Part shown: piece after piece, positions 9,456 to 31,564 of the stretch
How positions within the stretch are numbered: the stretch's first letter is position 1
How the letters are laid out: each line of letters starts with the position of its first letter
Virus record (IMG/VR): IMGVR_UViG_3300048589_001569
Coordinates: 1 to 31,564 of that record
Strand: one strand, 5' to 3'
DNA: 31,564 nucleotides
Source: a virus
Made by a program: the position numbers and the translations under genes
The notes under the pieces: generated by a model
What the model was told of the DNA's origin: nothing
Seen by the model: only the letters and a program-made list of their open reading frames with translations
The model's database searches: none

Positions 9456-10834
9456 TGGCCAAGATCACAGATCCGGACCTGCTGAACGTCGGCCAGGAGC
9501 TGATCCTCGACACGTCGGCGCGCACGATCGCGCTGTCGACCGCGGGCAGCCCGAACAACCTGAACGCGAAGGACGGCGTCACCGTCCAGGCGCTGTACTC
9601 GAAGCTGATCGAGTTGTGGACGAGCTCGGCGTACAACAAGTACCCGTTCCCGATGTACACCATCGACGCGCGGTCGGGTCAGTTCCAGTTCGGCACCGAT
9701 GGCCAGACCTTCAACGGCTGGGTCCCGCTCAATGACGCGACCCGCCAGATGCTTCGTGACGGTGGCTGGTCGGAATACACCTCCGGCGGCGTCCTCGACC
9801 GGCAGTACGTCGGCCTCGTGGCGCTGGCGTCCGGGTTCCCGGCCGGCGCGCAGTTCTACTACCAGCGCCAGGTGGGCGGCTCGGCGCTCGAGTTCACCTT
9901 CGACGACGCGCCGAACGAGGGCATCCTGGTCTACCAGGCGGGCTCGCCCGGCTTCGACACGCGAACCTACTTCAAGGCGTTCTGCCGCGAGTACGGGTAC
10001 ACCTACGACGACGCGGTGCTCGGGGACGTCGGCGAGACCAGTACCGGCGCGTTCAAGGTCTCGCTGCCGATCTCGGTCGCGGCCGACCTCAAGATCCAGG
10101 ACAACGACGCCACGGTGGCGGCCGACGCGCCCTACACGGCGATCGACGTCGAGTACTTCGGCAGCGACCAGAACCGCAGCATCGGCGGCGTCAATTACCC
10201 GTTCCGCATCATCATCGACGGCGCCGGGGCCTCGGCCGAGGAGATCTACACCAAGATCCAGTATTTGCTGCGGCAGGACACCGACATCGACTCGGGCGCC
10301 GGCACGGTCAATGGCAAGACCGCGAACTCGCTGCTGCGCTTCGTCGGCGACACGCTCTACACGACCACGGGCGTGTTCATCGACAACTACGATGCGAACG
10401 ACATCAACCGCATCGTCTTCACCGACCAGAATGGCGTCGAGCGGACCTTCCCGTTCACGGCCGCCGGCTCGCTGAACTTCAACAGCTTCCTGACCTCCGG
10501 CGGGACGGGCTACTACCGGATGTACTTCACCGCGCTGCCTGGCGCCGGCGATGACTACGGCGAGGCGGGTGCCGTGACGGTCGAGGATGCGACGCCGGGT
10601 TCGCCCTCGGTGCTGATCGAAGGCACGATCAGTGGTGCCTCGATCCCGTTCACGTTCGCCTACGACACGAACGCCCAGGGCGGCCGCACGCCGGCGACCG
10701 ATGCCGCGGTGACGATCGTGGCCGGCAATCCGGGCGTCGCGAAGCCCGTCGTCACGACTCACTCGATCACCCGGGCTGTCGGCCAGTCGGTCTCTCTGGT
10801 TGCAGAGCAGGATCGAGCCTACGTCAACCCGTAA
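9455..10834 (+). CDS. virion structural protein with SKYL/GW-type N-terminal domain
   Basis: 459 residues from ATG 9455, again in a TGATG overlap; a TTG directly before it could add one residue. The N-terminal ~90 residues (ALSTAGSPNNLNAKDGVTVQ, LYSKLIELWTSSAYNKYPFP, FNGWVPL) resemble the N-terminus of the 10844-11389 protein, so the two appear paralogous in part. The rest is beta-rich with glycine/threonine loops (RIVFTDQNGVERTFPFTAAG, GYYRMYFTALPGAG) and ends VAEQDRAYVNP. A structural role is inferred from location and composition. I do not know a named family. Confidence 0.8.
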   Translation: MAKITDPDLLNVGQELILDTSARTIALSTAGSPNNLNAKDGVTVQALYSKLIELWTSSAYNKYPFPMYTIDARSGQFQFGTDGQTFNGWVPLNDATRQMLRDGGWSEYTSGGVLDRQYVGLVALASGFPAGAQFYYQRQVGGSALEFTFDDAPNEGILVYQAGSPGFDTRTYFKAFCREYGYTYDDAVLGDVGETSTGAFKVSLPISVAADLKIQDNDATVAADAPYTAIDVEYFGSDQNRSIGGVNYPFRIIIDGAGASAEEIYTKIQYLLRQDTDIDSGAGTVNGKTANSLLRFVGDTLYTTTGVFIDNYDANDINRIVFTDQNGVERTFPFTAAGSLNFNSFLTSGGTGYYRMYFTALPGAGDDYGEAGAVTVEDATPGSPSVLIEGTISGASIPFTFAYDTNAQGGRTPATDAAVTIVAGNPGVAKPVVTTHSITRAVGQSVSLVAEQDRAYVNP

Positions 10835-11389: not shown

Positions 11390-11619
11390 GCCTGAACCCG
11401 CGCGCGATCGCCACACTCGGCGTCGGGTTCGGCGCCATATCGATCGCCTACCTCGGGCTGTGGCCGACCAGCACGCCGCCGGTCGAGCCTCCGGTGCCGC
11501 CCGCGGTGATCCTCGGCGGCGTCATTCCGTATCTGCCGATCGACCTGCTCCTTCGCGACGATCGCGACCTGCTGGAAATCATGCCGATCGTCATAGAGGT
11601 GATGAACCGTGACCGATGA
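11386..11619 (+). CDS. small membrane protein, unknown function
   Basis: 77 residues from GTG 11386, overlapping the previous stop by GTGA. One hydrophobic helix (ATLGVGFGAISIAYLGLW, about 9-26) is followed by a proline-rich stretch (PTSTPPVEPPVPP) and a second hydrophobic segment (AVILGGVIPYLPIDLLL), then an acidic end. It could be membrane-anchored or a hydrophobic virion component. No family is recognised. It overlaps the collagen-like gene by 11 bases, so it belongs to the same translational unit. Confidence 0.65.
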   Translation: MSLNPRAIATLGVGFGAISIAYLGLWPTSTPPVEPPVPPAVILGGVIPYLPIDLLLRDDRDLLEIMPIVIEVMNRDR

Positions 11620-12439
11620 GAACTTCGCAGAGCGAGCCGCAGTCGCCGTGCGCGCCGTGATCCAGCGGGAGCTCGCGAGGATCGAGGAACGCTGGAACGA
11701 GACCTTCGATCGATTCAGCAAGACGCTCGCGCTCCAGGTCGAGCGCGTCGCGGCACGGATCCCGGAGCGCGGCGAGAAGGGCGAGCAGGGGCCGCCGGGC
11801 GAGCGGGGCGAGAAGGGTGAGGCCGGTCAGGACTGCCCTCCGACCAATCCACGGGATGTGGCGCAGGCGATACTCGACACCCCATCCTCCAAGTCCTTCT
11901 TTGCCCACCTGAAGGGCGACCCCGGCGAGCGTGGGGAGAAAGGCGAAAAGGGTGAGCAGGGCCCACCTGGCGAGCGAGGCCTCGACGGAAAGGATGCGCT
12001 CGAGATCAGCATTCAGCCCGACCTGGACCCGGCCAAGTCGTACCCGCGCGGGACCTTCGCGGCCCACGCCGGCGGGCTGCTGCGCTCGACCCGCAAGACG
12101 ACGCCGATCGCCGAGGCCGCGGGCCTCGAGGGGGCCGGCTGGATCGTAATCGTGCGAGGCATCGCGAGCGCGGAGGTCGAGTACCCGAGCGATCGGACAA
12201 TGCGCACCGTGTTCACCTACACCGATGGCGCGAAGACCGTCACTGAGGTCCGCTATCCCGGGCCGCTCGACAAGGGCATTTTCCGCGAGGGCGAGGCCTA
12301 TGAGCGCGGCGACGGCGTCACCTTCGGTGGCTCCTGGTGGATTGCGCAGGTGGACGCACCAACGACAAAGCCCGGCACGTCGGCTGAGTGGCGCCTGGCG
12401 GTGAAGAAAGGTCGGGACGGCCGGGACGTCGAAAAATGA
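11609..12439 (+). CDS. collagen-like fibre protein with carbohydrate-binding-like C-terminus
   Basis: 276 residues from GTG 11609, with AGAGGTGATG upstream. Residues 1-50 form a charged helix, probably a coiled coil. Two collagen-type G-X-Y blocks follow, about 55-74 (GEKGEQGPPGERGEKG) and 103-129 (GDPGERGEKGEKGEQGPPGE), separated by a short helical segment. The C-terminal ~35 residues (EAYERGDGVTFGGSWWIAQV, then PGTSAEWRL) resemble the small tryptophan-rich CBM5/12 or chitin-binding type domain also found at the ends of phage fibres. Collagen blocks trimerise in phage fibres. Attachment to head or connector is suggested by gene position only. Confidence 0.88.
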   Translation: MTDENFAERAAVAVRAVIQRELARIEERWNETFDRFSKTLALQVERVAARIPERGEKGEQGPPGERGEKGEAGQDCPPTNPRDVAQAILDTPSSKSFFAHLKGDPGERGEKGEKGEQGPPGERGLDGKDALEISIQPDLDPAKSYPRGTFAAHAGGLLRSTRKTTPIAEAAGLEGAGWIVIVRGIASAEVEYPSDRTMRTVFTYTDGAKTVTEVRYPGPLDKGIFREGEAYERGDGVTFGGSWWIAQVDAPTTKPGTSAEWRLAVKKGRDGRDVEK

Positions 12440-12792
12440 CTCCGTCACTCGTCACGCTCGAGCAGGCCAAGGACCAGTGCGAGGTCATCGGCACGGACCA
12501 GGACGTGAAGATCACGCAGCTCGTGCGCGGCGCCTCGGCTGCGGTGCTGAACTACCTGGGCGACGGCGCGGATTTCTTTCTCGACAGCAGCGGCTGGGTG
12601 GACCCGGAGCCGGACTCGAGCGGCTACTCGATCGTGCCGGCCGAGGTCCAGCAGGCGACGCTGCTGCTTGTCGAGGAGTTCTTCGCGCATCGCGGCAGCG
12701 ACGGCGGCCAGGGTGCGCAGTGGGCACAGGGGTTCCTGCCGCCCGTCGTGACGGCGCTGCTCTACCCGCTGAGGGACCCGGCGCTTGGGTGA
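12436..12792 (+). CDS. head-tail connector, gp6-like
   Basis: 118 residues from ATG 12436 (ATGA overlap); the longer open frame upstream is ignored because it lies in the collagen gene. The opening MTPSLVTLEQAKDQCEV is the classic start of gp6-like DNA-packaging/connector proteins, followed by DQDVKITQLVRGASAAVLNY and the C-terminal helix VQQATLLLVEEFFAHRGSD and VTALLYPLRDPAL. It would bind under the portal ring and help close the filled head. The position fits, although a 6-kb block separates it from the portal. Confidence 0.92.
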   Translation: MTPSLVTLEQAKDQCEVIGTDQDVKITQLVRGASAAVLNYLGDGADFFLDSSGWVDPEPDSSGYSIVPAEVQQATLLLVEEFFAHRGSDGGQGAQWAQGFLPPVVTALLYPLRDPALG

Positions 12793-13423
12793 GTGGAGCG
12801 TGCCGCAGCTGTGGCCCTCCCAGACTGTTTCCATCCTGGCGAGCGGCCCGAGCCTGACCCGGGAGCAGTGCGAGCAGGTGCGCGGCCGCTGCCGGGTGAT
12901 CGCGGTCAGCAACCAGGGCATCGACAACGACGTGAACGGCCAGACGGTGCCGGCCTTCGCGCCGTGGGCCGATGCGCTGTACGCGGCGGACGCGAAGTGG
13001 TGGAAGTGCTACGCGGACCGGGCGCTCAAGTTCCCGGGGCTCAAGGTCTCGATCCGGCCCGATGCGGGCTATCCGGAGGTGCACACGCTGCAACCGTCCG
13101 ACCGCCGGCCGTTCGATGACCGTCCGACGCACCTGGTGACCGGCAGCAATTCCGGCTACCAGGCACTGCACCTGGCTGTGCACTTCGGCGCGACGCGGAT
13201 CGTGCTGCTCGGGTACGACATGCAGGACACCGGCGGCAAGCGCCACTGGTTCGGCAACCATCCGGGCCCGCTCAACACGCGCAACCCGTTCGCGACGTTC
13301 CTGAAGCGGTTCGGCGAGCTCGCCCCCGCCCTGGCGGAGCGCGGCATCGAGGTCATCAACTGCACGCCGACGACGGCGCTGCGGTGCTTTCGGCTCGCGC
13401 CACTGGCGGAGGTGTTTCCGTGA
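12785..13423 (+). CDS. MptE/DUF115-like protein, possible glycan-related enzyme
   Basis: 212 residues, start TTG 12785 or GTG 12800 (VPQLW), both with purine-rich upstream sequence. The opening contains ILASGPSLTREQCEQVRGR, a glycine-rich nucleotide-type loop like that of DUF115/MptE-like proteins (a family with pterin pyrophosphokinase and flagellin sugar-transfer members). Later come TGSNSGYQALHLAVHFGATR, IVLLGYDM and HWFGNHPGPLN, conserved in phage-borne relatives. It sits between two head-tail connector genes with short overlaps, so it is expressed with virion genes. The reaction is unknown. A role in sugar attachment is plausible because a glycan cassette lies 6 kb downstream. Confidence 0.7.
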   Translation: MGEWSVPQLWPSQTVSILASGPSLTREQCEQVRGRCRVIAVSNQGIDNDVNGQTVPAFAPWADALYAADAKWWKCYADRALKFPGLKVSIRPDAGYPEVHTLQPSDRRPFDDRPTHLVTGSNSGYQALHLAVHFGATRIVLLGYDMQDTGGKRHWFGNHPGPLNTRNPFATFLKRFGELAPALAERGIEVINCTPTTALRCFRLAPLAEVFP

Positions 13424-15881: not shown

Positions 15882-17995
15882 TGGCCACTCGCAGTCTGGG
15901 CAGCCTCACCGTCGACCTCCTGCTCCGCATGGGCGGATTCAAGCAGGGCGCGGACCAGGCGACGCGCGAGATGGACAAGCTCACCCGGAAGATGCAGTCC
16001 GGGTTCCGCACGCTGCAGGGCGTCGTCACGGGTCTCGTTGCCGGCGTCGGGTTCAGTAAGATCGTCCAGGCGACGATCGAGGCCGAGGAGTCGACGGCCA
16101 AGCTCGAGCAAGTGCTCAAGTCGACCGGCGGCGTGTCCGGGTTCACCTCGAAGCAGCTGCAGCAGGTCGCCGGCCAGCTGCAGCGCGTCACGGCCTTCGG
16201 CGATGACGCCGTGGTGGCGATGCAGGCCGTGCTGCTCACGTTCACGAACGTCCGCGGGGACCAGTTCACGGCCGCCACCGAGGCGGTGCTCGACCTCTCG
16301 ACGGCGCTCGGCATGGATCTACAGTCTGCGGCGCTACTCGTCGGCAAGGCGCTGAACGACCCCGTGAAGGGCGCCACGGCGCTGCAGCGATCGGGGATCC
16401 AGCTCACAGCGTCGCAGAAGGACCTGATCAAGACCTTCGTCGAGACTGGTGAGGTCGCGAAGGCCCAAGAGATCATCATCCGGGAACTGGGCGTCCAGTT
16501 CGGCGGCCAGGCGCGCGCCATCCGCGACACGTTCGGCGGCGCGCTCAAATCCGTGCAGAACGCCTTCGGCGACCTGCTCGAGGTCAACACCGGCGTGCCG
16601 GCGGCCACCAAAGCGCTGAACGAACTGTCGGATGTGCTGATGGATCCGCAGACCAAGGCGGGCGCCGAAGCGCTGTTCTCGACGCTGATCCGCGGCGCGT
16701 CCACGGCGACGAAGTTCATCGCCGACACGCTGAACACGACGCGCTTCCTGGCCGAGGAGCTCGCCGCGATCCGGTTCGGCGCCGCCGCGGGCGACACGGT
16801 CCGGATCGAGCAGGACATCGCCAAGGTTCAATCGGCGCTCGAAAACCCCTCGGAGCGGCTGCGGTTCTTCGGTCGCGAGGGCATCGTCGAGTGGTGGTCC
16901 GAGGATGAGCTGCAGGCCGAGCTGAAGCGGCTGCAGGGCCTGCTCAAGGACTATGGTCAGAACGTCGAGGCACCGTTCGTTGCGCCCGTGCCGAACGTGC
17001 CGAATGTTCCCTACGGGCTCGGCACGGGCGACGATGGCAAGGCGGCAGCGAGATCCGCACGCGAGACCGCCGACGCTCTGCAGGATCAGGCGAAGGCGTA
17101 CCAGGACATCTACGCGGCGGGCATTGCCGCGATCGAAGGCCTGCGCACGCCGGTCGAAGAGCAGATCGCGCAATACCAGGAAACGAAGTACGCGCTCGAG
17201 CAGCTCGCCGCGACCTACCCGAACCTGGCCGACCAGGCCGCCGCGGCGCTCGCCCGCCTCGAGATGGAGGGACTCGAGCCAATCACCATCACGGCCGAGC
17301 GGATCTTCCCGGAGAAAGAGCAGGAGAAGCTCAGCGTGTTCTTTGAGGAGGCCAGCCGCAGCGTGCAGGGGATCCTGTCGGACTTCATCTTCGATCCGTT
17401 CGAGAACGGACTCGAGGGGCTCGCCGACTCGTTCGCGAAGATGCTGCAGCGCATGGCCGCCGAGGCGATCGCCGCGCAGATTGCCGAGAAGATCTTCGGC
17501 ACCGGCGGCACGGGTAGCGGCGGCGGGTGGCTCGGCACCGCGGCCGGTATCCTGGGCGGCATCTTCGGGGGTGGTGGCGGCACGTCCGGCCTGTCCGAAG
17601 TCGCCATCACAGCCAAGCGCATCCCGGGATTTGATGAGGGCGGCTTCACGGGCGCCGGCGGGAAGCACCAGCCGGCTGGGCTGGTCCACGCGGGAGAATT
17701 CGTGGCGCGCTCCGAGGTGGTGCGTCAGCCGGGCGCCTTGAGCTTCCTCGAATCGTTCAACCGCGTCGGCATGCAGGCGTTGCAGGCGATGCCCGGGTTC
17801 GCCGAGGGCGGGCTCGTGGCCGCGATGCCTTCGCCGATCCGCAGCCCGACGCTCGGCATGCGCTCGTCGGGCATGACCGTCCAGAACAACTTCACGATCA
17901 ACGCACCGAACGGCACCGTCTCGCGGGCCACGGAACAGCAGATCGCGGCGGCCGCGGCGCGCGGTGCTTCCCGCGCCAACGTCCGGAATAACTGA
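15881..17995 (+). CDS. tail tape measure protein
   Basis: 704 residues from ATG 15881. The N-terminus (SLTVDLLLRMGGFKQGADQA, then TREMDKLTRKMQSGFRTLQG) is typical of lambda/GTA-like tape measures, followed by long helical coiled stretches, a hydrophobic segment near 45-60 and a domain with ERSGIQLT-like LQRSGIQLTASQKDLIKTFV. Near the end is the glycine-rich hydrophobic stretch around 545-570 and the conserved GFDEGGFTG...GLVHAGEFV motif. The protein sets tail length and is ejected with DNA. Using the usual ~0.15 nm per residue rule, the tail would be near 100 nm (inference). It abuts the next gene by TGATG. Confidence 0.94.
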   Translation: MATRSLGSLTVDLLLRMGGFKQGADQATREMDKLTRKMQSGFRTLQGVVTGLVAGVGFSKIVQATIEAEESTAKLEQVLKSTGGVSGFTSKQLQQVAGQLQRVTAFGDDAVVAMQAVLLTFTNVRGDQFTAATEAVLDLSTALGMDLQSAALLVGKALNDPVKGATALQRSGIQLTASQKDLIKTFVETGEVAKAQEIIIRELGVQFGGQARAIRDTFGGALKSVQNAFGDLLEVNTGVPAATKALNELSDVLMDPQTKAGAEALFSTLIRGASTATKFIADTLNTTRFLAEELAAIRFGAAAGDTVRIEQDIAKVQSALENPSERLRFFGREGIVEWWSEDELQAELKRLQGLLKDYGQNVEAPFVAPVPNVPNVPYGLGTGDDGKAAARSARETADALQDQAKAYQDIYAAGIAAIEGLRTPVEEQIAQYQETKYALEQLAATYPNLADQAAAALARLEMEGLEPITITAERIFPEKEQEKLSVFFEEASRSVQGILSDFIFDPFENGLEGLADSFAKMLQRMAAEAIAAQIAEKIFGTGGTGSGGGWLGTAAGILGGIFGGGGGTSGLSEVAITAKRIPGFDEGGFTGAGGKHQPAGLVHAGEFVARSEVVRQPGALSFLESFNRVGMQALQAMPGFAEGGLVAAMPSPIRSPTLGMRSSGMTVQNNFTINAPNGTVSRATEQQIAAAAARGASRANVRNN

Positions 17996-18636
17996 TGTCC
18001 TTCCTCGAAACACCGCGCTTCCCGGGCTGTCCGCGCTACGGGTTCGTCTCCGAGCCCATGTACTCGGTCACCACGATCGAGCGGGCGAGTGGTGTCGAGC
18101 GGCGCAACCGCAACTGGGCGTACCCGCTCACGCGCATCACGCTCACCGCGGGCCCGAGCGAGGGCGGCGACCCGGCCGTGCAGGAGCTTCTGCGCTTCTA
18201 TCACGCGGTCGGCGGCCAGGCGTACGGGTTCCGGGTCAAGGACTACACCGACTTCAAGTCGTGCGACGTCGGCGATACTGCCGCCTCGACGGATGCCCCG
18301 CTGCTCGCCGTGGTCGGAGCGAGCCCCGCCGAGTACCAGCTCGTCAAGCGCTACACCTACGGCGCGCTGTCACAGGATCGGCCGATCTTCAAGCCGGTGA
18401 GCGGCACGATCCTCATCGCCGACAACGGCACGCTCAAGACCGAAACCAGCGAATACACGGTCGACTATACGACCGGGCGCGTCTCGCTGTTGTTCACGCC
18501 CGCCGGGACTTTGACCTGGGGCGGCGAATTCGATCTGCCGATGCGCTTCGACGGTTCCTTCCCAGTCGAGATCATCAGTCACCGCCAGCAGGCTGTCTCG
18601 TTCTCGCTCAAAGAAATCCGCGTCTCTGCGGATTAG
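17995..18636 (+). CDS. distal tail protein, DUF2460 (TIGR02217 family, GTA gp12-like)
   Basis: 213 residues from ATG 17995. Diagnostic segments are MSFLETPRFPGCPRYGFVSE, TTIERASGVERRNRNWAYPL, LLRFYHAVGGQAYGFRVKDY and the ending PVEIISHRQQAVSFSLKEIR. In Rhodobacter-type gene transfer agents this protein lies directly before DUF2163, NlpC/P60 and the hub. Here the same order is kept but is split by about 4.8 kb of inserted genes. It forms the ring at the tail tip that joins tube and hub. Confidence 0.93.
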   Translation: MSFLETPRFPGCPRYGFVSEPMYSVTTIERASGVERRNRNWAYPLTRITLTAGPSEGGDPAVQELLRFYHAVGGQAYGFRVKDYTDFKSCDVGDTAASTDAPLLAVVGASPAEYQLVKRYTYGALSQDRPIFKPVSGTILIADNGTLKTETSEYTVDYTTGRVSLLFTPAGTLTWGGEFDLPMRFDGSFPVEIISHRQQAVSFSLKEIRVSAD

Positions 18637-18657
18637 CCATCTGTCTTGGAGGTGATG

Positions 18658-18945
18658 ATGAGTCCAGAAAATATTGCGCGCTTCAGGGTGCCGCTCGGTT
18701 CCCTGATCGTCGACGGCGCCCTAGTGCTGTCGCTGGTCTTCAGCACCGGCCAGATGATGGAGCGGTTCGACACGATGGACCGCCGCATGCAGCAGCTCGA
18801 GGAGCTGCAGGCTGCCTCGCGGTTAAGCACCCTCGAGATGCGCGCGACCCAGATGGAGCGTTACCAGGGGGAGCTGAAGCAGGACATCGTCAAGCGCCTC
18901 GATCGGATCGAGACGCTGCTGGACAACCAACAGAATCGGCGGTGA
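18658..18945 (+). CDS. small membrane/coiled-coil protein
   Basis: 95 residues from ATG 18658; GGAGG at 18648-18652 sets the spacing, and ATG 18655 is a close alternative. One hydrophobic segment (VPLGSLIVDGALVLSLVFST, about 11-30) is followed by a long charged coiled coil (MMERFDTMDRRMQQLEELQA onward) to the C-terminus. The layout recalls small phage inner-membrane or holin/spanin-like accessory proteins, but no family can be named. It is the first gene of the segment that interrupts the tail-tip module. It overlaps the following gene by GTGA. Confidence 0.75.
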   Translation: MSPENIARFRVPLGSLIVDGALVLSLVFSTGQMMERFDTMDRRMQQLEELQAASRLSTLEMRATQMERYQGELKQDIVKRLDRIETLLDNQQNRR

Positions 18946-19751
18946 GGGCCTACGTCGCCGTCCGTGAGGCGCCGCTGTACCGGCGGGACGCTTTCTGCGA
19001 CGGCCTCCGCAGCTGCGGCTACCAGCTGGGGCCTGAGCTCGCGAAGCCCCAGCCCGGCGACCTGGCACTGGTCTGGTGCCGCTACGGCGCGACCGACCAG
19101 CTCGCCAAGCGCTACGAGGCGGCCGGCGCGACCGTCGTCGTCGCTGAGAATGGCTACCTCGGCCGCGACTGGCGCGGGAAAGCCTGGTACGCGCTGGCAC
19201 TCAACCAGCACAACGGCGTCGGCCGCTGGCCGGTCGGCGGGGCCGAACGGGCGGAGATCTTCGAGCCCGACTGGTGGCCCTGGCGCAACCAGGACGGCTA
19301 CGCGCTCGTCTTCGCGCAGCGCGGCATCGGCTCGCCGCTGGTGGCGCAGCCGTCGGGCTGGCACCAAAAGGCCGCGCAGCTGCTCGAGCGGATGGGGCAT
19401 CGGGTGGTCGTGCGGGGTCATCCCGGCCGGCACCAGGAGAACGAGTCGCTGTACGAGCACCTCAACGGAGCTGCCTTCGCGGTCACCTGGGGGAGCGGGG
19501 CGGCGATCAAGGCGCTGCTCTACGGCGTGCCGGTCTATCACGGCCTGCCGCAGTGGATCGGCGCACCGGCCGCCCGGCCGTTCGGAAAGGTCCTCGGCGA
19601 GCCCTTCCGGGGCGACCGCGGCGAGTTCCTGACCCGGCTCGCCTGGGCGATGTGGTCCGTCGAGGAGATCGGCTCTGGATACGCCTTCCGTCACCTGCTA
19701 CGCGGATCACAGGAAGCAGTACAGCAAGGATCTCTGCAGCGCACTGGCTGA
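18942..19751 (+). CDS. KpsC-like glycosyltransferase-like protein 1
   Basis: 269 residues from GTG 18942 (GTGA overlap); the long open frame upstream to 17964 is a shadow of other genes. The N-terminal part VRAYVAVREAPLYRRDAFCD, then RYGATDQLAKRYEAAGATVV and VAENGYLG, is followed by YALALNQHNGVGRW. The C-terminal half has VVVRGHPGRH and AFAVTWGSGAAIKALLYGVP, the ending typical of GT-B folds of the capsule transferase KpsC/LpsZ group, where a donor-site loop follows the 'T..S..A..AL..G.PV' motif. The substrate is unknown. It heads a six-gene glycan cassette. Confidence 0.7.
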   Translation: MRAYVAVREAPLYRRDAFCDGLRSCGYQLGPELAKPQPGDLALVWCRYGATDQLAKRYEAAGATVVVAENGYLGRDWRGKAWYALALNQHNGVGRWPVGGAERAEIFEPDWWPWRNQDGYALVFAQRGIGSPLVAQPSGWHQKAAQLLERMGHRVVVRGHPGRHQENESLYEHLNGAAFAVTWGSGAAIKALLYGVPVYHGLPQWIGAPAARPFGKVLGEPFRGDRGEFLTRLAWAMWSVEEIGSGYAFRHLLRGSQEAVQQGSLQRTG

Positions 19752-20568
19752 GGGCACGGGCGGGCAGGTCGTGTTCGACTGGCAGCCTAGACCCGGCATC
19801 GCAATCGTCTCCGGCATGGCCGACAACCAGCGCGCGGTCATGCGCTCGCCGGTGGTCACGGACTGGTACGAGGTCGACCACGCCTACTGGCGGCGCATGG
19901 AGTACCACCGGATCAGCCACCGGCGGCTATGGTGCGACGGGACCGGCGAGCCGGACTATGCGCGCCTCGACCGGCTTGGCGTGCAGTTCGCGCCGGCGAG
20001 GAGCGGCGGCCGGCACGTCCTGGTCGCGCTGCAGTCGCCCGAGTTCTACGCCCGCTGGGCGGGCATGAGCCAGCAGCAGTACGTGAACCGGCTGCAGGGC
20101 CAGCTGCGCGCCGTCACCCGGCGCCCGATCGTGATGCGGCACAAGCCAATTGGCCGCATGCGTCGCCAGCCGTCCATCGGACAGGCGCTGGCCAATGCCT
20201 GGATCGTGGTGACGCACTCGTCGGCCGTGGCGCTCGACGCCCTGGCCGCCGGCGTGCCGGTGATCGTCACCGAGCCGACCTTCTGTGCCGCGCGCCTGGC
20301 GACGCCATGGCACCGGATCGAAAACCCTTACCGCCCGACGCAGGACGAGCGCAGGGAGCTATTCGCCCGCATCGCGGGCCATCAATGGACCTTGGCCGAG
20401 ATGCGCTCTGGCGAGGCCTGGGAGCGTCTGAGTGGGAATCGGGGACGAGGTCCTGGCGATCGGCCAGGCGAAGGCAGCCAGGCAGAAGGTGGCGATCCTG
20501 GACAAGACGGGCCGGCGCCGCTGGCACCCGCTCTGGGAACGGGCGAGCTACATCGCGCGGCCGGGTGA
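19675..20568 (+). CDS. KpsC-like glycosyltransferase-like protein 2, start uncertain
   Basis: The frame is open upstream of the first standard start (GTG 19771) and encodes plausible sequence there, DTPSVTCYADHRKQYSKDLC then SALAEGTGGQVVFDW. CTG 19675 has AGGAG eight bases upstream and would give 297 residues; from GTG 19771 the protein has 265. Core features are SGMADNQRAVMRSPVVTDWY, VALQSPEFYARW, RPIVMRHKP and WIVVTHSSAVALDALAAGVP-VIV, the GT-B donor-loop pattern shared with the previous protein. About 45 residues after WERLS look like out-of-frame reading of the next gene, so the true C-terminus may be shorter in relatives. Confidence 0.65.
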   Translation: MDTPSVTCYADHRKQYSKDLCSALAEGTGGQVVFDWQPRPGIAIVSGMADNQRAVMRSPVVTDWYEVDHAYWRRMEYHRISHRRLWCDGTGEPDYARLDRLGVQFAPARSGGRHVLVALQSPEFYARWAGMSQQQYVNRLQGQLRAVTRRPIVMRHKPIGRMRRQPSIGQALANAWIVVTHSSAVALDALAAGVPVIVTEPTFCAARLATPWHRIENPYRPTQDERRELFARIAGHQWTLAEMRSGEAWERLSGNRGRGPGDRPGEGSQAEGGDPGQDGPAPLAPALGTGELHRAAG

Positions 20569-21169
20569 GCCGGGCGAGTTCCCGGGGCTGACGAACGGAC
20601 CGGCCTGCCGACCCTACATCGACTACAAGCGGACCACGAAGGACCGCTGGGCGTTCACCACCTGGCGCGCGAGTCCCGGCGAGCTGTTCGACGTGCGCCC
20701 GGACCCGCGGGCCGAAGGGCTGGTCCTGGTCGAGCCGCACATCAAGGCCACGGCGAGCCCGAACAAGCAGTGGGGCCGCTGGCAGGAGCTCGTGCGCTGC
20801 TATCCCGACGTGCCCTGGGCCCAACTCGGCAACCCGGGCACGAAGTGGCTCGCCGGCGTCATCCGGCTCGAGACACGCGACTTCGCCGACGCCTGCAACC
20901 TGATGGCCGGCTGCGCCACGGCCGTGCTGCCCGAGGGTGCGCTGCACCACGTCGCCGCGGCCCTCGGCCGGCGGGTCGTCGTGTTGTTCGGCGGTTACCT
21001 GCGGCCGGCGACCACCGGCTACGAGACACACAACAACCTGGCGGTCGACGACCCCGAGGCACTTGGATGGAGAATCAGGCACCCAGCTTGCCAGCGCGCG
21101 TGGTCACGAATCACGCCGGAGTCTGTTCGGACGGCAGTGGCATCGGTCCTCCGAATGCCCAGCTCGTAG
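20432..21169 (+). CDS. heptosyltransferase-like protein (GT9-like)
   Basis: 245 residues from GTG 20432, with GGGAGCG upstream; it overlaps the preceding frame by 137 bases. The start VGIGDEVLAIGQAKAARQ matches the 'GIGDE' N-terminal loop of ADP-heptose:LPS heptosyltransferase-like proteins. Then come DKTGRRRWHPLWERASYIAR, RPYIDYKRTT, VEPHIKATASPNKQWGRWQE and the nucleotide-sugar site-like VLPEGALHHVAAALGRRVVV-LFGG. The last residues (HPACQRAWSRITPESV) also suit the family. It probably transfers a sugar from a nucleotide donor. Acceptor unknown. Confidence 0.75.
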   Translation: MGIGDEVLAIGQAKAARQKVAILDKTGRRRWHPLWERASYIARPGEPGEFPGLTNGPACRPYIDYKRTTKDRWAFTTWRASPGELFDVRPDPRAEGLVLVEPHIKATASPNKQWGRWQELVRCYPDVPWAQLGNPGTKWLAGVIRLETRDFADACNLMAGCATAVLPEGALHHVAAALGRRVVVLFGGYLRPATTGYETHNNLAVDDPEALGWRIRHPACQRAWSRITPESVRTAVASVLRMPSS

Positions 21170-21804
21170 GCGGCGTCTGGCTGCCGGCCAACGAGAAGCA
21201 CCTCGTCGAGATGATGGAGGTGCACCAGCGGCGCGAGGTCGACGGCCAGCTGACCTACCAGTACCACAAGATCGAGCGGGCGCTCGGCATGCTGCCGCCG
21301 GAGCGGCGCCGGCGCTGTGTCGACATCGGCGCACACGTCGGGCTGTGGTCGAAGGAGCTCGTGAAGGCGTTCCAGTTCGTCATGGCGTTCGAGCCGAACC
21401 CGATCGTGGCGGACCTGTGGCGCTGGAACGTCACCGCGAAGAATGCGCACCTGCGCCAGGTGGCGCTCGGCAAGGCGGAGGCATCCGTCGGCCTGAAGCT
21501 CTACGACGGCCACAGCGGGCACACGCAGGTCAGTGGCGCGGGCGACGTGCCGATGAACACGCTCGACTCGTTCGGGTTCGTCGATGTCGACCTGATCAAG
21601 ATCGACGTCGAGGGCCACGAGCTCGCCGTGGTCGAGGGCGCAATCGAGACGCTGAAGCGGTGCCGGCCGGTCATGGTCGTCGAGCAGAAGGGCGAGGACG
21701 GCCGGCTCGGGCTGAAGCCGAACGGCGCGCTGCGCTGGCTCGAGAAGCTCGGCATGGTGTCCGTGGGCTGTCACGGTGGCGATTACTTCCTGGTGTGGCC
21801 ATGA
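21067..21804 (+). CDS. FkbM-family methyltransferase
   Basis: 245 residues if started at ATG 21067 (CCGAGG upstream); it overlaps the preceding gene by 103 bases, and a later start near 21098 is possible. SAM-binding motif I is CVDIGAHVGLWSKEL, followed by MAFEPNPIVADLWRWNV and VALGKAEASVGLKLYD. The FkbM C-terminal signature NTLDSFGFVDVDLIKIDVEG, then HELAVVEGAIETLKRCRPVM, is complete. Such enzymes O-methylate sugars or small molecules in glycan clusters. It is linked to the radical SAM gene by ATGA. Confidence 0.9.
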   Translation: MENQAPSLPARVVTNHAGVCSDGSGIGPPNAQLVGGVWLPANEKHLVEMMEVHQRREVDGQLTYQYHKIERALGMLPPERRRRCVDIGAHVGLWSKELVKAFQFVMAFEPNPIVADLWRWNVTAKNAHLRQVALGKAEASVGLKLYDGHSGHTQVSGAGDVPMNTLDSFGFVDVDLIKIDVEGHELAVVEGAIETLKRCRPVMVVEQKGEDGRLGLKPNGALRWLEKLGMVSVGCHGGDYFLVWP

Positions 21805-22754
21805 GCATTACCGAGCGCATCGACGCAATCACGAAGATCCCGGAGACGCACCGGTTCGCCGCTCCGCCGGCGCCGCGCTCCGTCAAGATCGAGCTCACGG
21901 GCCGCTGCAATTACAGATGCGGTTTCTGTGCGCTGCGCACCCGGGAAGTGCAGCCTCACGGCGATATGGATCTCGACCTGTTCCGCCGCGTCACGACCGA
22001 GATGCGCGAGGCGGGTGTCGAGGAGATCGGGCTCTTCTACCTGGGCGAGTCCTTCATGGCGCCCGAGCTGCTGCTCGAGGCGCTGAAGTGGGTCAAGGGC
22101 GAGCTGCAGTTCCCGTATGTATTCCTGACCTCGAACGCCAGCCTCTCGACACCCGAGCACGTCGAGCCGCTGATGCAGCACGGGCTCGATTCGCTCAAGT
22201 GGTCGATGAACGCGGCCGACGAGAAGCAGTTCCGCGAGGTCATGGCCGTGTCGCCGAAGTACTGGCGCAAGGCGCTCGCCAACGTCAAGGCCGCGTGGGA
22301 CATCCGCAACGCCGGCGGGTATGGCACACGGCTCTATGCCTCCTCGATTCGCTACGACGGCGAGCAGCAGGCCAAGATGGAGGCTCTGCTCGACGAGCAC
22401 GTCCTGCCGTTCGTGGATCAGCACTACTGGCTCCCGCTCTACTCGATGGGCGCGATCGCGGTGCAGCGCGAGGCCGAGCTCGGCTACCGGCCGACCGCCG
22501 GCAACCAGGGCCGCCTCGAGGCGATGCGCGAGCCGCTGCCCTGCTGGTCGGCGTTCACCGAGGGACATGTGCGGGCAGACGGCGGCTTGAGCCTGTGCTG
22601 CTTCGACAGCGACGGCCGGTTCCAGGTCGGCGACCTGACCCGCCAGTCGTTCATGGAGGCGTGGAACTCGCCGGAGTTCCAGACGATCCGCGCCGCGCAC
22701 CTGCGCCGCGACGTGACCGGCACCGTCTGCGAGCAGTGCGTCGCGTACTCATGA
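21801..22754 (+). CDS. radical SAM/SPASM protein
   Basis: 317 residues from ATG 21801. The 4Fe-4S/SAM motif CNYRCGFC (CxxxCxxC) lies in KIELTGRCNYRCGFCALRTR, about residues 36-43. The TIM-barrel region includes EIGLFYLGESFMAPELLLEA and LTSNASL. A C-terminal SPASM-like part holds further cysteines (LPCWSAF, LSLCCFDSDGRFQVGDL and VCEQCVAYS), suitable for auxiliary clusters. Related SPASM proteins occur in polysaccharide and peptide-modification loci. The exact reaction is unknown. It overlaps the next gene by ATGA, so it is part of the cassette. Confidence 0.92.
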   Translation: MSITERIDAITKIPETHRFAAPPAPRSVKIELTGRCNYRCGFCALRTREVQPHGDMDLDLFRRVTTEMREAGVEEIGLFYLGESFMAPELLLEALKWVKGELQFPYVFLTSNASLSTPEHVEPLMQHGLDSLKWSMNAADEKQFREVMAVSPKYWRKALANVKAAWDIRNAGGYGTRLYASSIRYDGEQQAKMEALLDEHVLPFVDQHYWLPLYSMGAIAVQREAELGYRPTAGNQGRLEAMREPLPCWSAFTEGHVRADGGLSLCCFDSDGRFQVGDLTRQSFMEAWNSPEFQTIRAAHLRRDVTGTVCEQCVAYS

Positions 22755-23470
22755 CCGCGCTGAAGGTCTACATCGGCTACGACCCGCGCGAGGAGGAGGC
22801 TTACAAGGTCGCGGAGTTCTCGCTGCGCCGGCACGCCTCGCGGCCCGTCGTCGTGACGCCACTCAAACTCGACAAGCTGCAGGCCTGCGGGCTGTCGCAG
22901 CGGCCTTACCGGATCCACCGGCATTCATTGTGGGACGTGCTCTCGGACGCGCCCTGCTCGACGGAGTTCTCGAACAGCCGATTCCTGACGCCGATCCTCG
23001 CGCAGACCGGCTGGGCGTTGTTCATCGACTGCGACATGCTGTTCCTCGGCGACGTCGCGCGCCTGTTCGCCCTGGCCGACCCGAAGTACGCCGTGATGTG
23101 CGTCAAGCACGAGCACGCCGGCGACGAGGGCACGAAGATGGACGGCTGCGAGCAGACCCGCTACCGGCGCAAGAACTGGTCGAGCGTGATGCTGTTCAAC
23201 TGCGACCACCCGTCGAACCAGGGCTTGACGCTCAAGATGCTGAACTCCGTGCCGGGCCGCGACCTGCACCAGTTCTGCTGGCTCACGGACGCCGAAGTCG
23301 GCGAGCTGCCGAACACCTGGAACTGGCTGGTCGGCGTGCAGCCGAAGCCGGCGGGCGTTCAGCTCGCGCACTACACGCTCGGCATGCCGTTCATGCCGGG
23401 CTACGAACGGGCCGAGCACTCGGATCTGTGGTGGACCGAGCAGCACCTGATGAAGGATCGCGTGGCGTGA
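22751..23470 (+). CDS. DxD glycosyltransferase, GT8-like
   Basis: 239 residues from ATG 22751. The start KVYIGYDPREEEAYKVAEFS and the SRFLTPILAQTGWALFIDCD-MLFLGD segment give a clear DxD-type metal/nucleotide-sugar site (D-C-D). Later parts are SVMLFNCDHPSNQGLTLKML and NTWNWLVGVQPKPAGVQLAH, followed by Y/TLGMPFMPGYERAEHSDLWW, consistent with GT-A enzymes of the glycogenin/LPS galactosyltransferase-like group. Donor and acceptor are unknown. It is the last gene of the cassette and overlaps the tail gene that follows by GTGA. Confidence 0.88.
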   Translation: MTALKVYIGYDPREEEAYKVAEFSLRRHASRPVVVTPLKLDKLQACGLSQRPYRIHRHSLWDVLSDAPCSTEFSNSRFLTPILAQTGWALFIDCDMLFLGDVARLFALADPKYAVMCVKHEHAGDEGTKMDGCEQTRYRRKNWSSVMLFNCDHPSNQGLTLKMLNSVPGRDLHQFCWLTDAEVGELPNTWNWLVGVQPKPAGVQLAHYTLGMPFMPGYERAEHSDLWWTEQHLMKDRVA

Positions 23471-24447
23471 GAACCCTTCCCGTCGCATTGCAGACTCATC
23501 TGCAGGGCGACGTCACCACGCTCGCCGTCTGCTGGCGCATCACCCGCCGCGACGGCGTGCTGATCCTCGGCACCGAGCACGACCAGGACCTGACGATTGT
23601 TACCGGTGGCTCGCCGCCGAACCCCTACGCCGGCACCTACCTCGCTCACGCCGGCATCACCGGCTCTGATGTGCGCTCGACCTCAGACATGAGCGTCGAC
23701 AACATGGAGGTCACTGGCGCGATCAATCAGGGCGACCTGAGCCTGGTCGACCTGTCGGCCGCGGACATCGAGGCCGGGCTCTTTGACGACGCCTCCGTCG
23801 TGCTGTTCATGGTGAACTGGCAGGCGCCCGACGACGGGCAGATCGTGCTCAGGACCGGCAACATCGGCGAGATCCGCCGCACGGCCGAGGGCCAGTATCG
23901 GACCGAGCTGCGCGGCCTCGCCCAGCGCCTGACGCAGAACATTGTCCGGACCTATGGCTCGAGCTGCGATGCGGAGCTCGGCGACACGCGCTGCGGCATC
24001 GACATCGACGCGCTCACGATCACCGGCACCGTCACGGCCGTTGGCAGCAATCGCCAGTTTTCGGCGAGCGTGGCCTATGGCTCTCCGGCGCTCGGCGAGG
24101 CGGGATACTTCAACGGCGGCCTGGTCACCTGGACGTCGGGCGCCAACGATACCTTCAGCATGGAGGTGAAGCAGGACGCGATCGGCAGCCCCGGCGACAT
24201 CCTGCTCTACCTGCCGATGCCCTACGACATCGAGGTCGGCGACACGTTCTCGATCCGTCCTGGCTGTGACAAGTCCGCGGCGATGTGCAAGGGCCGTTTT
24301 GCGAACCTCGTGAACTTCCGCGGTCACGGCGCCTGGGTGCCGGGCATGGGCGAGCTCGCGGCGTTCGGTGGCCAGACGGCCGAGAAGAAGCCGCGGCCGT
24401 CGCGCTTCCTCAACTGGCCGCGTGACGTCGAATTCGAGGAACCATGA
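23467..24447 (+). CDS. tail protein, DUF2163 (phage_BR0599 / TIGR02218, GTA gp13-like)
   Basis: 326 residues from GTG 23467, overlapping the previous stop. The N-terminus (LPVALQTHLQGDVTTLAVCW, RITRRDG) and the DMSVDNMEVTGAINQGDLSL segment are characteristic, as are the C-terminal cysteine-containing parts SSCDAELGDTRCGIDIDALT and RPGCDKSAAMCKGRFANLVN-FRG. GTA-like phages place this gene just after DUF2460 and before NlpC/P60. It is a baseplate/tail-tip component. Its codons and G+C resemble the rest of the tail module. Confidence 0.93.
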   Translation: MRTLPVALQTHLQGDVTTLAVCWRITRRDGVLILGTEHDQDLTIVTGGSPPNPYAGTYLAHAGITGSDVRSTSDMSVDNMEVTGAINQGDLSLVDLSAADIEAGLFDDASVVLFMVNWQAPDDGQIVLRTGNIGEIRRTAEGQYRTELRGLAQRLTQNIVRTYGSSCDAELGDTRCGIDIDALTITGTVTAVGSNRQFSASVAYGSPALGEAGYFNGGLVTWTSGANDTFSMEVKQDAIGSPGDILLYLPMPYDIEVGDTFSIRPGCDKSAAMCKGRFANLVNFRGHGAWVPGMGELAAFGGQTAEKKPRPSRFLNWPRDVEFEEP

Positions 24448-24849: not shown

Positions 24850-27800
24850 GTGTCGAATTTCGGCCAGGCCGCACTGACGATCGGCGGAGCAGCGCTCGGC
24901 TTCGTGCTGCCCGGCGTCGGCTGGGCGATCGGCGCGACGCTCGGCAACATGGCGGGCTCGGCGCTCTTCCCGACCGACCTCGGCACCGTCAGCGGCCCGC
25001 GACTCAACGACCTGAACGTGCAGTCCTCGGCGGTCGGGGCACCGATCCCGATCGTCTACGGCACCTACGCGATCGCCGGCAACGTGATCTGGTCGAGCGG
25101 GATCATCGAGAAGGTCTCGAAGAAGAAGCAGGGCGGCAAGGGTGGGCCGACACAGACCACCAAGACCTTCAGCTATTCGGTCAACTGCGCGGTCGGGGTT
25201 TGCGAGGGGCCCATCTCCGGCATCAGCCGGATCTGGGCTGACGCTGAGCTGATTTACGACGTGCGCGAGCAACTCACCGGCGAGAGTGACGCGGACTACG
25301 CCGCGCGCATTCTGGCCAGCACCGAGCTGCTCGCTAATACCGAGATCTATCTCGGCACCGCCGACCAGCTGCCGGACCCGACAATCGAGAGTTTCGAGGG
25401 CGTCGGCAACGTCTCGGCGTTCCGCGACCTGGTCTACGTGGTGTTCAGCAGCTTCCAGCTCGAGAGCTACGGCAACCGCGTCCCGAATTTCCGCTTCGAG
25501 ACATCCGTCACTGGCCGGCTCGAACTAGAGGCATTCACAGAGCCGGGCGTCTTCGAGTGGACCAAGCCACCCGGCGTCGTATCGGTCACGGTGACCTGCA
25601 TCGGCGGCGGTGGCGGCGGTGGCGGCGGCGCAGTTGGCAATGCGGCCAATTCGTTTGTCAGCGGCGGCCAGGGCGGCGGTGGCGGCGGTATTTCCGTGCA
25701 GACGTTCGCGGCCGCGAGCCTCGGTGCGACCGAGTCCGTGATTGTTGGGTCAGGCGGTAACGGTGGGCCTGGTGCCTCCTCAGCCTATGATTCAGATGGA
25801 TCTGACGGGTTGCCGGGCTCCGCGAGCAGTTTCGGCGTGTATGTGACGGCCGGCGGCGGCGGTGAAGGCTATCGAGGCCAGAATGGCGACTACATACAAG
25901 TTAACGACAACAATGGCGGCAGCGGCGCAACATCGACCGGCGGCTATGGTGCATTTTGGCTGAGCAATGCCGATCAGGGGTTCGGCACAGGCGACAAACC
26001 GAACGGTAACAATGGCCTCGGCCCGGGTGGCGGTGCCGGCGGTGGGACTCGCCGATTTTTTCAATCTCCCGGTGGTGTAGATGGCGGCGACGGAGCGGAC
26101 TCGCCCGACGGATTTTATGCAGGCGGCGCCGGCGGAAACAGCGACATCGATGATAATTTTGGTGTGACAGCTGGCGCCAGCGGCATCGACGCCGATCAAT
26201 ACGTCGCCGGACCTGGCGGCGGCGGTGGTGGCGTGGGCGGATACCTTTCGCCACAAGAGCCGGGTGCGTCCGGAAAGAGCGGTGGCATTGGTGGCCGTTA
26301 CGGCGGCGGTGGTGGCGGTGGCGGCGCCGCGCTGAGCTTCGGCCCACCGGCTTCTGTCAGCGGTGATGGTGCGGCCGGCGCAGACGGATTGGTCTTGCTG
26401 CAGTACAGCTACGCGCCCGAGACGACCTCCTGCGTGACGCTCGGCCAGATCGTGCGCGATCTCTGCGAGCGCAGCGGACTTGCCGAGGATCAAGTCGACG
26501 TCACAGACCTGACGGAATGCGTTGACGGCTACGTTGTGTCGCGCGTCATGGCCGCCAGGGATGCAATTGGCCCGCTGCGCTCCTATGGCTGGTTCGACTG
26601 TGTCGAATCGAACGGCGTACTCAAGTGGCCGACCCGCGGCAAGGCTGGGGTCTTCGATCTTTCGGCGGACGACCTTGCCGCGCACATCGCCGGGGACAGT
26701 CGCCCTTCATCGGCCGAGAGCGATCGTCAGCAAGAGGTCGAACTACCGCGCCGGCTGCGCGTGCACTATGCCCAGACCGCGCAGAATTACGAACCCGGAG
26801 AGCAGTCCGCCTCGCGGCTCGCCGCCGGAAATGTCGAAGTTCGCGACATGGAAGTCGCTGTGGCGATGAGCGACACCAAAGGGGCCCGGATCGCTGACGT
26901 CGTTCTCTATGACCTTTGGGTATCACGCAACCGGATCCGTGCGATCGTCGATCAGTCGTGGCTTCACCTCGAGCCGGCTGACGCCGGAACGATACCCCTC
27001 GACGGCCGCCAGGAGCGGGCGCGGATCACGAACATCGACCACGCACTGCCCGGCCTGCTGCGCCTCGAACTGGTACGTGACGACGATGGCGTCTATCAGT
27101 CCTACGCGATCGGCGCACCGGCCGCCTATGCAGGCACCGGCGGCGCCAGCATCAGCCTCCCAGGCACCGCCGAGCTCGTGCTGCTCGACTTGCCGCTGCT
27201 TCGTGACGCCGACAACGACGCCGGCTACTACGCGGCGATCCGCTCGATCGGCGGCACCAGCTGGGCTGGGGCGGCCCTGTTCCGCTCGTCGGATGGCGGC
27301 GCCAACTACGAGGAGGTCGCCGCCACGGCCGAAGAGGCGTCGGTTGGCCGTTTGGCCGCCGCGCTCGCGAGCGGCCCGACGACGATTATCGACGAGGGTA
27401 ACGAGCTGCTGGTCGATATGGATTCCGGCGAGCTCGAATCCATATCGTCGATGTCTTTGCTTGCCGGACTGAACGCCGCGGCGATCGGCGCCGACGGCCG
27501 CTGGGAGATCATTCAGTTTCGCGATGCTGAACTCGTTGGCAGTCCGGCGCTGTGGCGCCTGACCGGCCTGCTGCGCGGACGCCGTGGCACCGAATGGGCG
27601 GTCGGCAGCAGCCAGGACGACGACCGATTCGTGCTGCTCGACTCGGCGTTGATTCGCGTCGCAATGAATCTTGCCGCGATTGGCACAGAGCGCCCGCACA
27701 AGGCTGTTTTGTCGGGCACTTCGATCGACGCTGCGACGGCAGTCGATTTCACCGGACGAGGCGTGGCGCTCGAGCCGTTCTCCGTGACCGATGTCACTGG

Positions 27801-30556: not shown

Positions 30557-30681
30557 GCGTCCAGTATTCTGAGGCCTACCTCTGTAAAACAAGCACTTCC
30601 CGATGCGAATCGGCGAAAATTACTGGACACTCAAACCGCCGAATCAGCCTGATTCGTCAGACGGTTAGGCCAGAGAGCGGG
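30557..30681. other. intergenic arm left of the att core
   Basis: Non-coding on the + strand between the last late gene and the tRNA fragment. It contains GCGTCCAGTATT at 30557-30568, the related element GTGTCCAGTAATTTTCGCCG on the - strand (30611-30630), and a hairpin CGAATCA-GCC-TGATTCG (30640-30656). These look like integrase or host-factor sites. The - strand HNH ORF enters from the right and stops at 30665. No complete tRNA 5' half is present. Confidence 0.5.
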
Positions 30682-31273
30682 TCTGGCTACGAACCAGAAG
30701 GTCGGGAGTTCGAATCTCTCCGGGCGCGCCACTTCCGCATTGCTGGCGTCCGATATTGTCGACTAGCGTCCGATATTTTCGACGCCGAAGATATCGCGAC
30801 GCAATCGCTGCAAAGACCTGCTCGCCCCATTCGTTCATCGCTAGGTTGATTGCCACCACAACCAGGCGGCAGTTGTCTGGACCGTATCCGACGCTCGAGT
30901 CGATCCTATCGATACTCGCTACGAACGGCCGGCGCCGGTGTCCCGCGAGGTTCAAGGTGTCGAACTTGATGTTCGTCAGCTCGCACCGACCACCCGATCT
31001 AATCCACAAGGCCGTGACGTCGGCCTTGGTGAGTTGGAAGGGAATGTCGCGCATCCGCGCATTCTTGCGAGCGCTGGAAAGCAATACTCCCAGGTGACGC
31101 TCATCGAAATGCCCTGCGCCGTCAGCGAGCGCTGGAAGAAGCTGGAATACCTTTTCGATATCCTTCCCTAGGTTGACCCACTTTTCCGATTTTGGGATGG
31201 CGTAGTAGTAGCTGCCGCGACGTTTGTATATTCGCACCGGCAGACCCAAATCGTGCACTCGTCTGCGACCCAC
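30665..31273 (-). CDS. HNH-type nuclease-like ORF with integrase-like N-terminal segment
   Basis: 202 residues from GTG (complement of 31271-31273), three bases after the integrase stop on the same strand. Residues about 10-50 (LPVRIYKRRGSYYYAIPKSE, WVNLGKDIEKVF) resemble the short N-terminal DNA-binding segment of phage integrases. Residues 90-155 look like an HNH-type domain: RSGGRCELTN (C97), FVASIDRIDSSVGYGPDNCR and INLAMNEWGEQVF. The classical catalytic histidine is not obvious. Residues about 182-198 (APGEIRTPDLLVRSQ) are read antisense to the tRNA fragment, so the natural C-terminus is probably earlier or altered by integration. Confidence 0.65.
   Translation of the reverse strand: MGRRRVHDLGLPVRIYKRRGSYYYAIPKSEKWVNLGKDIEKVFQLLPALADGAGHFDERHLGVLLSSARKNARMRDIPFQLTKADVTALWIRSGGRCELTNIKFDTLNLAGHRRRPFVASIDRIDSSVGYGPDNCRLVVVAINLAMNEWGEQVFAAIASRYLRRRKYRTLVDNIGRQQCGSGAPGEIRTPDLLVRSQTRSLA
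30682..30731 (+). other. 3' part of tRNA-Arg(ACG), probable attP core
   Basis: The segment carries a tRNA 3' half: anticodon stem TCTGG (30682-30686), loop CTACGAA with anticodon ACG, closing stem CCAGA (30694-30698), variable bases AGGTC, T-arm GGGAG-TTCGAAT-CTCTC (30704-30720), acceptor strand CGGGCGC, discriminator G and encoded CCA (30729-30731). The matching 5' acceptor GCGCCCG and a proper D-arm are absent upstream. This is the fragment expected in a phage that integrates into a tRNA gene and restores its 3' end. Confidence 0.85.
30746..30783 (+). repeat. 18-bp direct repeats, possible integrase arm sites
   Basis: GCGTCCGATATTGTCGAC (30746-30763) and GCGTCCGATATTTTCGAC (30766-30783) differ at one base and are spaced 20 bp apart. 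Related elements occur on the other side of the tRNA core (30557-30568 and, inverted, 30611-30630). Placement on both sides of the core is what arm-type integrase sites would show. They also lie within the C-terminal coding part of the - strand HNH ORF. Confidence 0.65.
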
Positions 31274-31276
31274 TGA

Positions 31277-31564
31277 TTACCTCAACGGCCTCACCGACAC
31301 CGGCTTGGTGATGTAGAACCGCCGCGTCGTCGCCTCGTCGGCATGCCCGAGCCGCTCCTGGGCGTCCTTCACGCTGTCGCTGTCGCTGGCACTCTTCCGC
31401 CGCAGGTCGTGGAACGTGAAGCGCTCGCCGCCGGCGGCAACATGCTTGGCCATGAGCCGCTGCCAGATCGCCGAGAACCCCTCGACGCTGTAGCCCTGGC
31501 CGGCGCGCGTCCGTAGCACATAGCGCCGCGGGATCTGCGGCGACAGCCGCTTCGCCCTGGCGAG
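31277..31564 (-). CDS. int: tyrosine recombinase (phage integrase), C-terminal part
   Basis: 95 residues are visible; the frame runs off the window end at 31564, so the N-terminus and the first catalytic arginine lie outside. The catalytic C-terminal motifs are present in order: FTFHDLRRKSAS (H-x-x-R), LGHADEATTRRFYI with the box III histidine in GHAD and the nucleophile tyrosine in RRFYITKP (codon at 31313-31315). The enzyme would recombine attP with the host tRNA-Arg gene. It is transcribed towards the attachment site and the structural genes, with the HNH ORF between. Confidence 0.93.
   Translation of the reverse strand, partial: LARAKRLSPQIPRRYVLRTRAGQGYSVEGFSAIWQRLMAKHVAAGGERFTFHDLRRKSASDSDSVKDAQERLGHADEATTRRFYITKPVSVRPLR

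Follow-up and report, generated by a model that had tools for sequence, protein, structure and literature searches.

A mobile block of glycosyltransferase, methyltransferase and radical SAM genes in a phage late operon, with a possible role in virion glycosylation

The gene block and its surroundings

The window, that is, the whole stretch of DNA analysed here, is a 31,564-base IMG/VR virus record whose late operon lies on the plus strand and comprises genes for terminase, portal, neck, tail tube, tape measure, DUF2460, DUF2163, NlpC and hub proteins, with a tRNA-Arg, an endonuclease and an integrase fragment to the right of the hub gene. Between the DUF2460 and DUF2163 genes, six intact genes (A to F) lie head-to-tail on the plus strand at 18942-23470, which agrees with the coordinates and flanks given in the initial annotation, and gene order and strand bear out its placement of this cassette inside the late operon (Table 1). 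A small gene lies directly upstream, and the ends of this gene and of A to F overlap or abut. The small protein contains a coiled coil and one possible membrane helix (19-residue hydropathy maximum of 1.93), and the corresponding maxima of A to F do not exceed 1.51, so that these six proteins have no clear membrane segment and look soluble.

Table 1. Positions of the block, its genes and the neighbouring features in the window
Feature	Position	Strand	Evidence or remark
Sialyltransferase-like (ST-like) gene, PHROG 4603, at the Ad1|Hc1 site	12785..13423	+	phrog_4603 4e-41, synteny
DUF2460 tail protein, left flank	17995..18636	+	Pfam 3.7e-39
Mobile block, from just before the small-gene start to the F stop	18645..23470	+	one continuous 87% alignment to L024:6445-11267
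Small coiled-coil protein, 99 aa	18646..18945	+	directly upstream of A at both sites (L024, L096, L101)
A, KpsC-fold GT-B protein	18942..19751	+	RXHP present, QRGIG replaces QXXXD
B, homologue of A	about 19675..20568	+	probable CTG start; lacks RXHP and QXXXD
C, GT9 (heptosyltransferase)-like, short N-terminal part	20432..21169	+	PF01075 8.6e-5, TIGR02195 1.1e-4
D, FkbM-family methyltransferase	21067..21804	+	Pfam 5.7e-16, TIGR01444 1.3e-19
E, radical SAM/SPASM protein	21801..22754	+	Radical_SAM 6.8e-12, SPASM 2.6e-12
F, GT-A type glycosyltransferase, PHROG 28018	22751..23470	+	phrog_28018 5e-54, DxD
DUF2163-type baseplate hub protein, right flank	23467..24447	+	Phage_phiJL001_Gp84_N 5.5e-52, Phage_BR0599 4e-23

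Compared with an 87%-identical relative (L202/L024; related loci are designated by L and a number), dN/dS is 0.30, 0.30, 0.18, 0.23, 0.04 and 0.20 for A to F, respectively, and 0.20 for the small coiled-coil gene. All six genes are under purifying selection, and since their values lie between 0.04 and 0.30, the reading frames are not due to chance; the cassette shows no decay, a condition under which the initial annotation would have been refuted. The conserved N-terminus of B has no ATG, GTG or TTG, and the CTG at 19675 is the best start candidate; because pN is below pS for the B frame within the A/B overlap, this N-terminus is coding. At the start region (19675-19690), CTG is found in the window, L202 and L184, and an ATG lies two codons downstream in L101.

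In the overlap of B and C, selection is seen in the C frame only, and the last ~45 residues of B, which are not under selection, are therefore probably read-through. Relatives of the L012/L013 type carry an extra glycosyltransferase-like gene between B and C, recognized from its translation, and their B ends earlier; an HNH-type gene, also judged from its translation, lies between B and C in L013. A programmed frameshift was considered for the long B-C overlap and dropped, given the shorter B and extra gene in L012, L013 and L184 and the unselected B tail. We prefer to see the overlap as read-through that would have followed gene loss or recombination.

Several other features of the window may be recorded. 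The tRNA-Arg, endonuclease and C-terminal integrase fragment at 30654-31564 are suggestive of a temperate lifestyle and of a possible attachment site, and L190 has the tRNA stretch and part of the integrase in common with the window. A Gly-rich segment of the hub protein (25500-26440), where a local GC-skew peak occurs, is unaligned at the DNA level in L188 and L190, and two large proteins of 853 and 460 aa that follow the portal (6894-10834) have no Pfam or PHROG match.

Families, folds and conserved residues

Searches of Pfam, PHROG and NCBIfam did not place A or B in any usable family, and structure prediction was needed. An AlphaFold2 model of A (pLDDT 88.5) was compared with PDB, and all 21 matches at E<=0.001 were the retaining Kdo transferases KpsC, WbbB and KrkA. 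B is homologous to A (hhalign E 1.6e-47), through which alone its fold is assigned. Members of the Kdo-transferase clan share a CMP-binding (K/R)XHP motif and a QXXXD motif whose Asp is the nucleophile (PMC12887879, PMC10148158). A resembles KpsC, WbbB and KrkA in fold, in the RXHP motif (R158-G-H-P, kept in 12 of 12 aligned cassette-type relatives) and in the conserved Gln, but it is shorter, phage-encoded and has Gly at the position of the nucleophilic Asp (QRGIG, again in 12 of 12 cassette-type members aligned). B differs further in that RxKP stands in place of RXHP and QXXXD is absent, which leaves neither the His nor the Asp. The label "KpsC-like" originally given to both proteins thus holds for the fold, by model comparison for A and by homology for B, but not for membership of the Kdo transferases, which in A fails with the replacement of the Asp. 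We regard A as a KpsC-fold and probably CMP-ulosonate-binding protein. Two distant homologues of A (L008 and L082) retain a Kdo-transferase-like QXXXD whereas cassette-type members have QRGIG, suggesting a change of chemistry or donor within the A family.

For the remaining four proteins, family matches agree with the earlier assignments as heptosyltransferase-like protein (C), FkbM methyltransferase (D), radical SAM/SPASM protein (E) and DxD glycosyltransferase (F). The Glyco_transf_9 match of C (8.6e-5) is barely above the Pfam cut-off, those of D and E are above theirs, and the Glyco_transf_8 match of F is weak (0.0047, below the cut-off); the DxD motif of F (D93 and D95) is invariant in 62 of 62 homologues. 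E contains the CxxxCxxC cluster motif, and C36, C40, C43 and the SPASM Cys residues are invariant or nearly so in 58 viral homologues. These gene identities support the proposed glycan-modification role for most members of the cassette. In the case of E, the radical SAM/SPASM identity stands, but in view of the neighbourhoods of its chromosomal relatives it is not clearly a glycan gene. E lies within 1.3 kb of F at 30 of 47 loci on viral contigs versus 4 of 64 loci in bacterial genomes. Its chromosomal relatives (L104-L183) are 64-74% identical, common and mostly from Betaproteobacteria, and they are often found beside fnr-type regulators, cbb3 oxidase genes, universal stress protein and nitronate monooxygenase, these neighbours having been named by reading the sequences.

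The ST-like protein was tentatively assigned to the GT42/MptE-like clan of sialyltransferase-like proteins. Its match to Pfam MptE-like (1.2e-5) is below the cut-off, its profile matches the structure of Campylobacter CST-II (2drj) at E=2.7e-4, and a Foldseek search with its model returned no match at E<=0.001. The family includes PmgO of phage P1 and orf7 of phage D3 at 29-36% identity.

Mobility of the block and its occurrence in other phages

The stretch 18645-23470 aligns with L024/L096 in one continuous 4.8-kb alignment at 87% identity, and the copy in these relatives sits between an ST-like gene and the head-closure gene Hc1. On the same relative contig, DUF2460 directly adjoins DUF2163, leaving the junction empty, and the DUF2163 part shares 88% identity with the window. 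The cassette is thus a mobile, gene-precise module. The small gene moves together with the six enzyme genes, so a unit of six genes, as originally defined, is too small: it comprises at least seven genes as well as the detached ST-like gene.

The DUF2460-DUF2163 gap is at most 150 nt in 44 of 71 loci having both flanks, counts that are not independent because some loci were drawn, with overlap, from one contig or from contigs that hardly differ. Adjacency of the two genes is the usual state, in keeping with the adjacency in GTAs mentioned in the initial annotation. At this junction, the window group has the A-F block, L188/L189 have another set made up of three genes (ST-like, GT-A and methyltransferase), and phages of the L207 type have lysis-type genes; the last two assignments were made mainly from translations. 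Further slots for glycosyltransferase and methyltransferase genes are found at Ad1|Hc1, Hc1|neck, tail-terminator|tail-tube and tail|lysis, and differing sets occupy the same slots. The junction initially presented as the place of the cassette is therefore one of several used by a mobile module.

The initial annotation had also made co-conservation of the genes in other phages a condition of its reading, and a search found the core set (the ST-like gene, A, B and F) together in unrelated phages. Most relatives are metagenomic fragments, and the E-values of the collection scan apply to candidate stretches only. Ten phages or groups have A at >=37% identity with enough flank (the window group, L012, L018, L026, L033, L167, L196, L229, CcrBL9 and CcrColossus); F is present in all ten and B in nine. 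An ST-like gene usually lies directly upstream of A in these ten. In the window it is detached, 5.5 kb upstream at Ad1|Hc1, where the complete cassette is found in relatives. The accessory genes are C, D and E, and E is absent from L012-L016 and the Ccr phages. The core set recurs as far as the Caulobacter jumbo phages and adjoins structural or lysis genes in these as well as in L167, L196, L229, L026 and others. Not all B and F homologues belong to structural operons, as the cases of Pelagibacter phage Mosig and cyanophage S-SCSM2R show. No description of this gene set was retrieved from the literature searched.

Among known phages, the closest resemblance is to CcrColossus gp126-131 and CcrBL9 gp527-522, which comprise ST-like, A, B, F, methyltransferase and GT9-like genes with the same core order, on the late-gene strand, right after the tail genes and before the endolysin. 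They differ in their tail|lysis site and in identities of 28-42%, and neither the radical SAM gene nor the co-moving small gene was detected in them; the Ccr phage genome paper does not discuss the cassette genes. The sets pmgN-pmgQ of P1 and orf7/orf13 of D3 likewise combine an ST-like gene with a methyltransferase gene or one annotated as a glycosyltransferase in a late or morphogenetic gene context, but A, B, C, E and F are all missing from them. The gene order in P1 is pmgO, pmgP (whose match to MptE-like is again weak), a phosphatase gene and pmgQ (annotated as a glycosyltransferase); pmgO, pmgP and pmgQ are nonessential on laboratory Escherichia coli according to a CRISPRi screen and an earlier deletion survey (PMC10695390). 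The D3 gene orf7 is flanked by the major head protein gene and Ad1, and the methyltransferase gene orf13 of this phage is at Hc1|neck. According to its record annotation, Tetraselmis virus S20 has two ST-like, two glycosyltransferase and one methyltransferase gene, among others, from the head genes to Hc1. In mycobacteriophage Corndog (cluster O), gp35-38 include an O-methyltransferase and glycosyltransferases encoded in the structural operon and proposed to modify the capsid (PMC4351075); here the host is actinobacterial and the genes lie between portal and protease, and the likeness is one of gene type and placement.

Seroconversion clusters (gtrABC; oac, wzy-beta and iap of D3) are similar to the block in that surface-sugar enzymes are encoded by a phage. 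The gtrABC clusters lie outside the structural block and include membrane proteins. The D3 genes iap, oac and wzy-beta (21-24.6 kb) are also outside the structural block and apart from orf7 and orf13, in line with the contrast to seroconversion genes drawn earlier, whereas the window has six soluble-looking enzymes in the late operon. The seroconversion hallmarks, namely flippase, lipid-carrier transferase, acetylase and polymerase genes and a position outside the late operon, are absent from A-F. The gene context is instead of the virion-glycosylation type, with intact, co-conserved glycosyltransferase genes among structural genes.

Candidate functions and their implications

With about even confidence, we propose that the block is a mobile, late-expressed module that glycosylates a virion surface component. 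Position and strand imply that the block would be expressed late. The small coiled-coil protein and the six soluble enzymes may work with the upstream ST-like protein; the ST-like protein and/or A would add acidic, ulosonic-type sugars from putative CMP donors, C and F would attach further sugars in an order suggested here, D would O-methylate the glycan and E might modify the acceptor or a sugar. The product would be a short, capped glycan on a component of the virion surface, presumably encoded by the same late operon. One candidate acceptor, a collagen-like repeat protein, was set aside: such repeats lie near the ST-like gene in several relatives with the same portal type, and since this proximity is absent in the Ccr phages and the L018 group, it probably reflects shared ancestry. 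In the window, this protein is encoded at 11609-12439, between portal-region genes and the head-tail adaptor, and towards its C-terminus it resembles the end of a large portal protein family (phrog_2271 and phrog_1289).

Virion modification is ranked first because of the late position, the soluble-looking enzymes, the lack of flippase and carrier proteins and the precedents in mycobacteriophages, in which virion glycosylation by phage glycosyltransferases has been described (Freeman 2023, as cited in PMC12619734). The finding of the block at another site in a relative, 87% identical and with the DUF2460-DUF2163 junction empty there, purifying selection across all its genes, the core set beside structural or lysis genes in unrelated phages and the use of the same slots by other glycosyltransferase and methyltransferase sets are consistent with it, as are the fold and RXHP motif of A, the lack of clear membrane segments in A-F, the separation of the D3 O-antigen genes from its ST-like and methyltransferase genes and the structural-operon precedent of Corndog (PMC4351075). 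On the other hand, the classical products of KpsC, GT9 and GT42 enzymes are capsule and LPS, the catalytic Asp of the Kdo transferases is missing from both A and B and their His from B as well, the chromosomal relatives of E occur in non-glycan neighbourhoods and some B and F homologues are found outside structural operons, in Mosig and S-SCSM2R. The same capsule and LPS affinities of A, C and the ST-like protein favour a more tentative reading that we rank second, host-envelope modification, which like virion modification is a hypothesis of the initial annotation. The enzymes would act at the inner membrane, late or in lysogens, on newly made LPS core or on precursors of the capsule, so that progeny escape adsorption to debris and infected cells. 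A membrane location of the small protein would fit this alternative, and the phage looks temperate from its tRNA-Arg and integrase fragment. In addition, the Kdo-synthesis genes kdsB and kdsA occur near an F homologue in a cyanophage, Synechococcus phage S-SCSM2R (L005:7010-10535), where the F homologue lies two genes upstream of them. However, genes for a flippase, a lipid-carrier transferase or a polymerase are missing from the block, the O-antigen genes of D3 form a set of their own, and in large phages the core set also lies between tail and lysis genes, where late expression would leave little time to remodel the envelope.

That the block is cargo with no role for the phage, as a recent, decaying or host-derived glycan cluster, appears very unlikely. 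The empty junction in close relatives and the change of sites might be read in this way, but selection and co-conservation largely refute it: dN/dS is well below 1 in all six genes, catalytic residues are conserved in E and F, and unrelated phages have the core set in common. Moreover, when 399 genomes from a single bacterial order were searched with a profile of A, without a positive control, only one marginal match (E 9.8e-4) was obtained. DUF2163 matches in that order, sought as a lead to the host, were at most 47% identical. Glycosylation of DNA by phage glycosyltransferases has precedent (Pyle 2024, as cited in PMC12619734), but we consider decoration of modified bases of the phage genome by the enzymes of the block highly improbable: the fold of A suggests a sugar-acid transferase acting on surface glycans, the cassette sits with structural rather than replication genes, and PF00303 (thymidylate-synthase family, base hydroxymethylase type) gave no match in eight cassette-bearing or related records, of which only two are complete genomes.

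A broader version of virion glycosylation, which we offer as speculative and rather doubtful, is that these modules form an unrecognized, widespread class of movable late-operon elements that decorate a virion protein with an O-methylated, acidic glycan derived from CMP-ulosonate, by means of KpsC-fold enzymes devoid of the catalytic Asp and a radical SAM enzyme that prepares the acceptor, with pmgO-Q of P1 and orf7/orf13 of D3 as reduced versions. KpsC-fold proteins without the family nucleophile would represent an unusual enzymatic case. If virion glycosylation by the block is true, the sugar coat of the virion would be the work of an exchangeable late module present in many phages that infect Gram-negative bacteria and not a speciality of a few mycobacteriophages. 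Since P1 and D3 carry a homologue of the ST-like gene, so far labelled "putative morphogenetic" without a function, the question can be addressed in laboratory strains.
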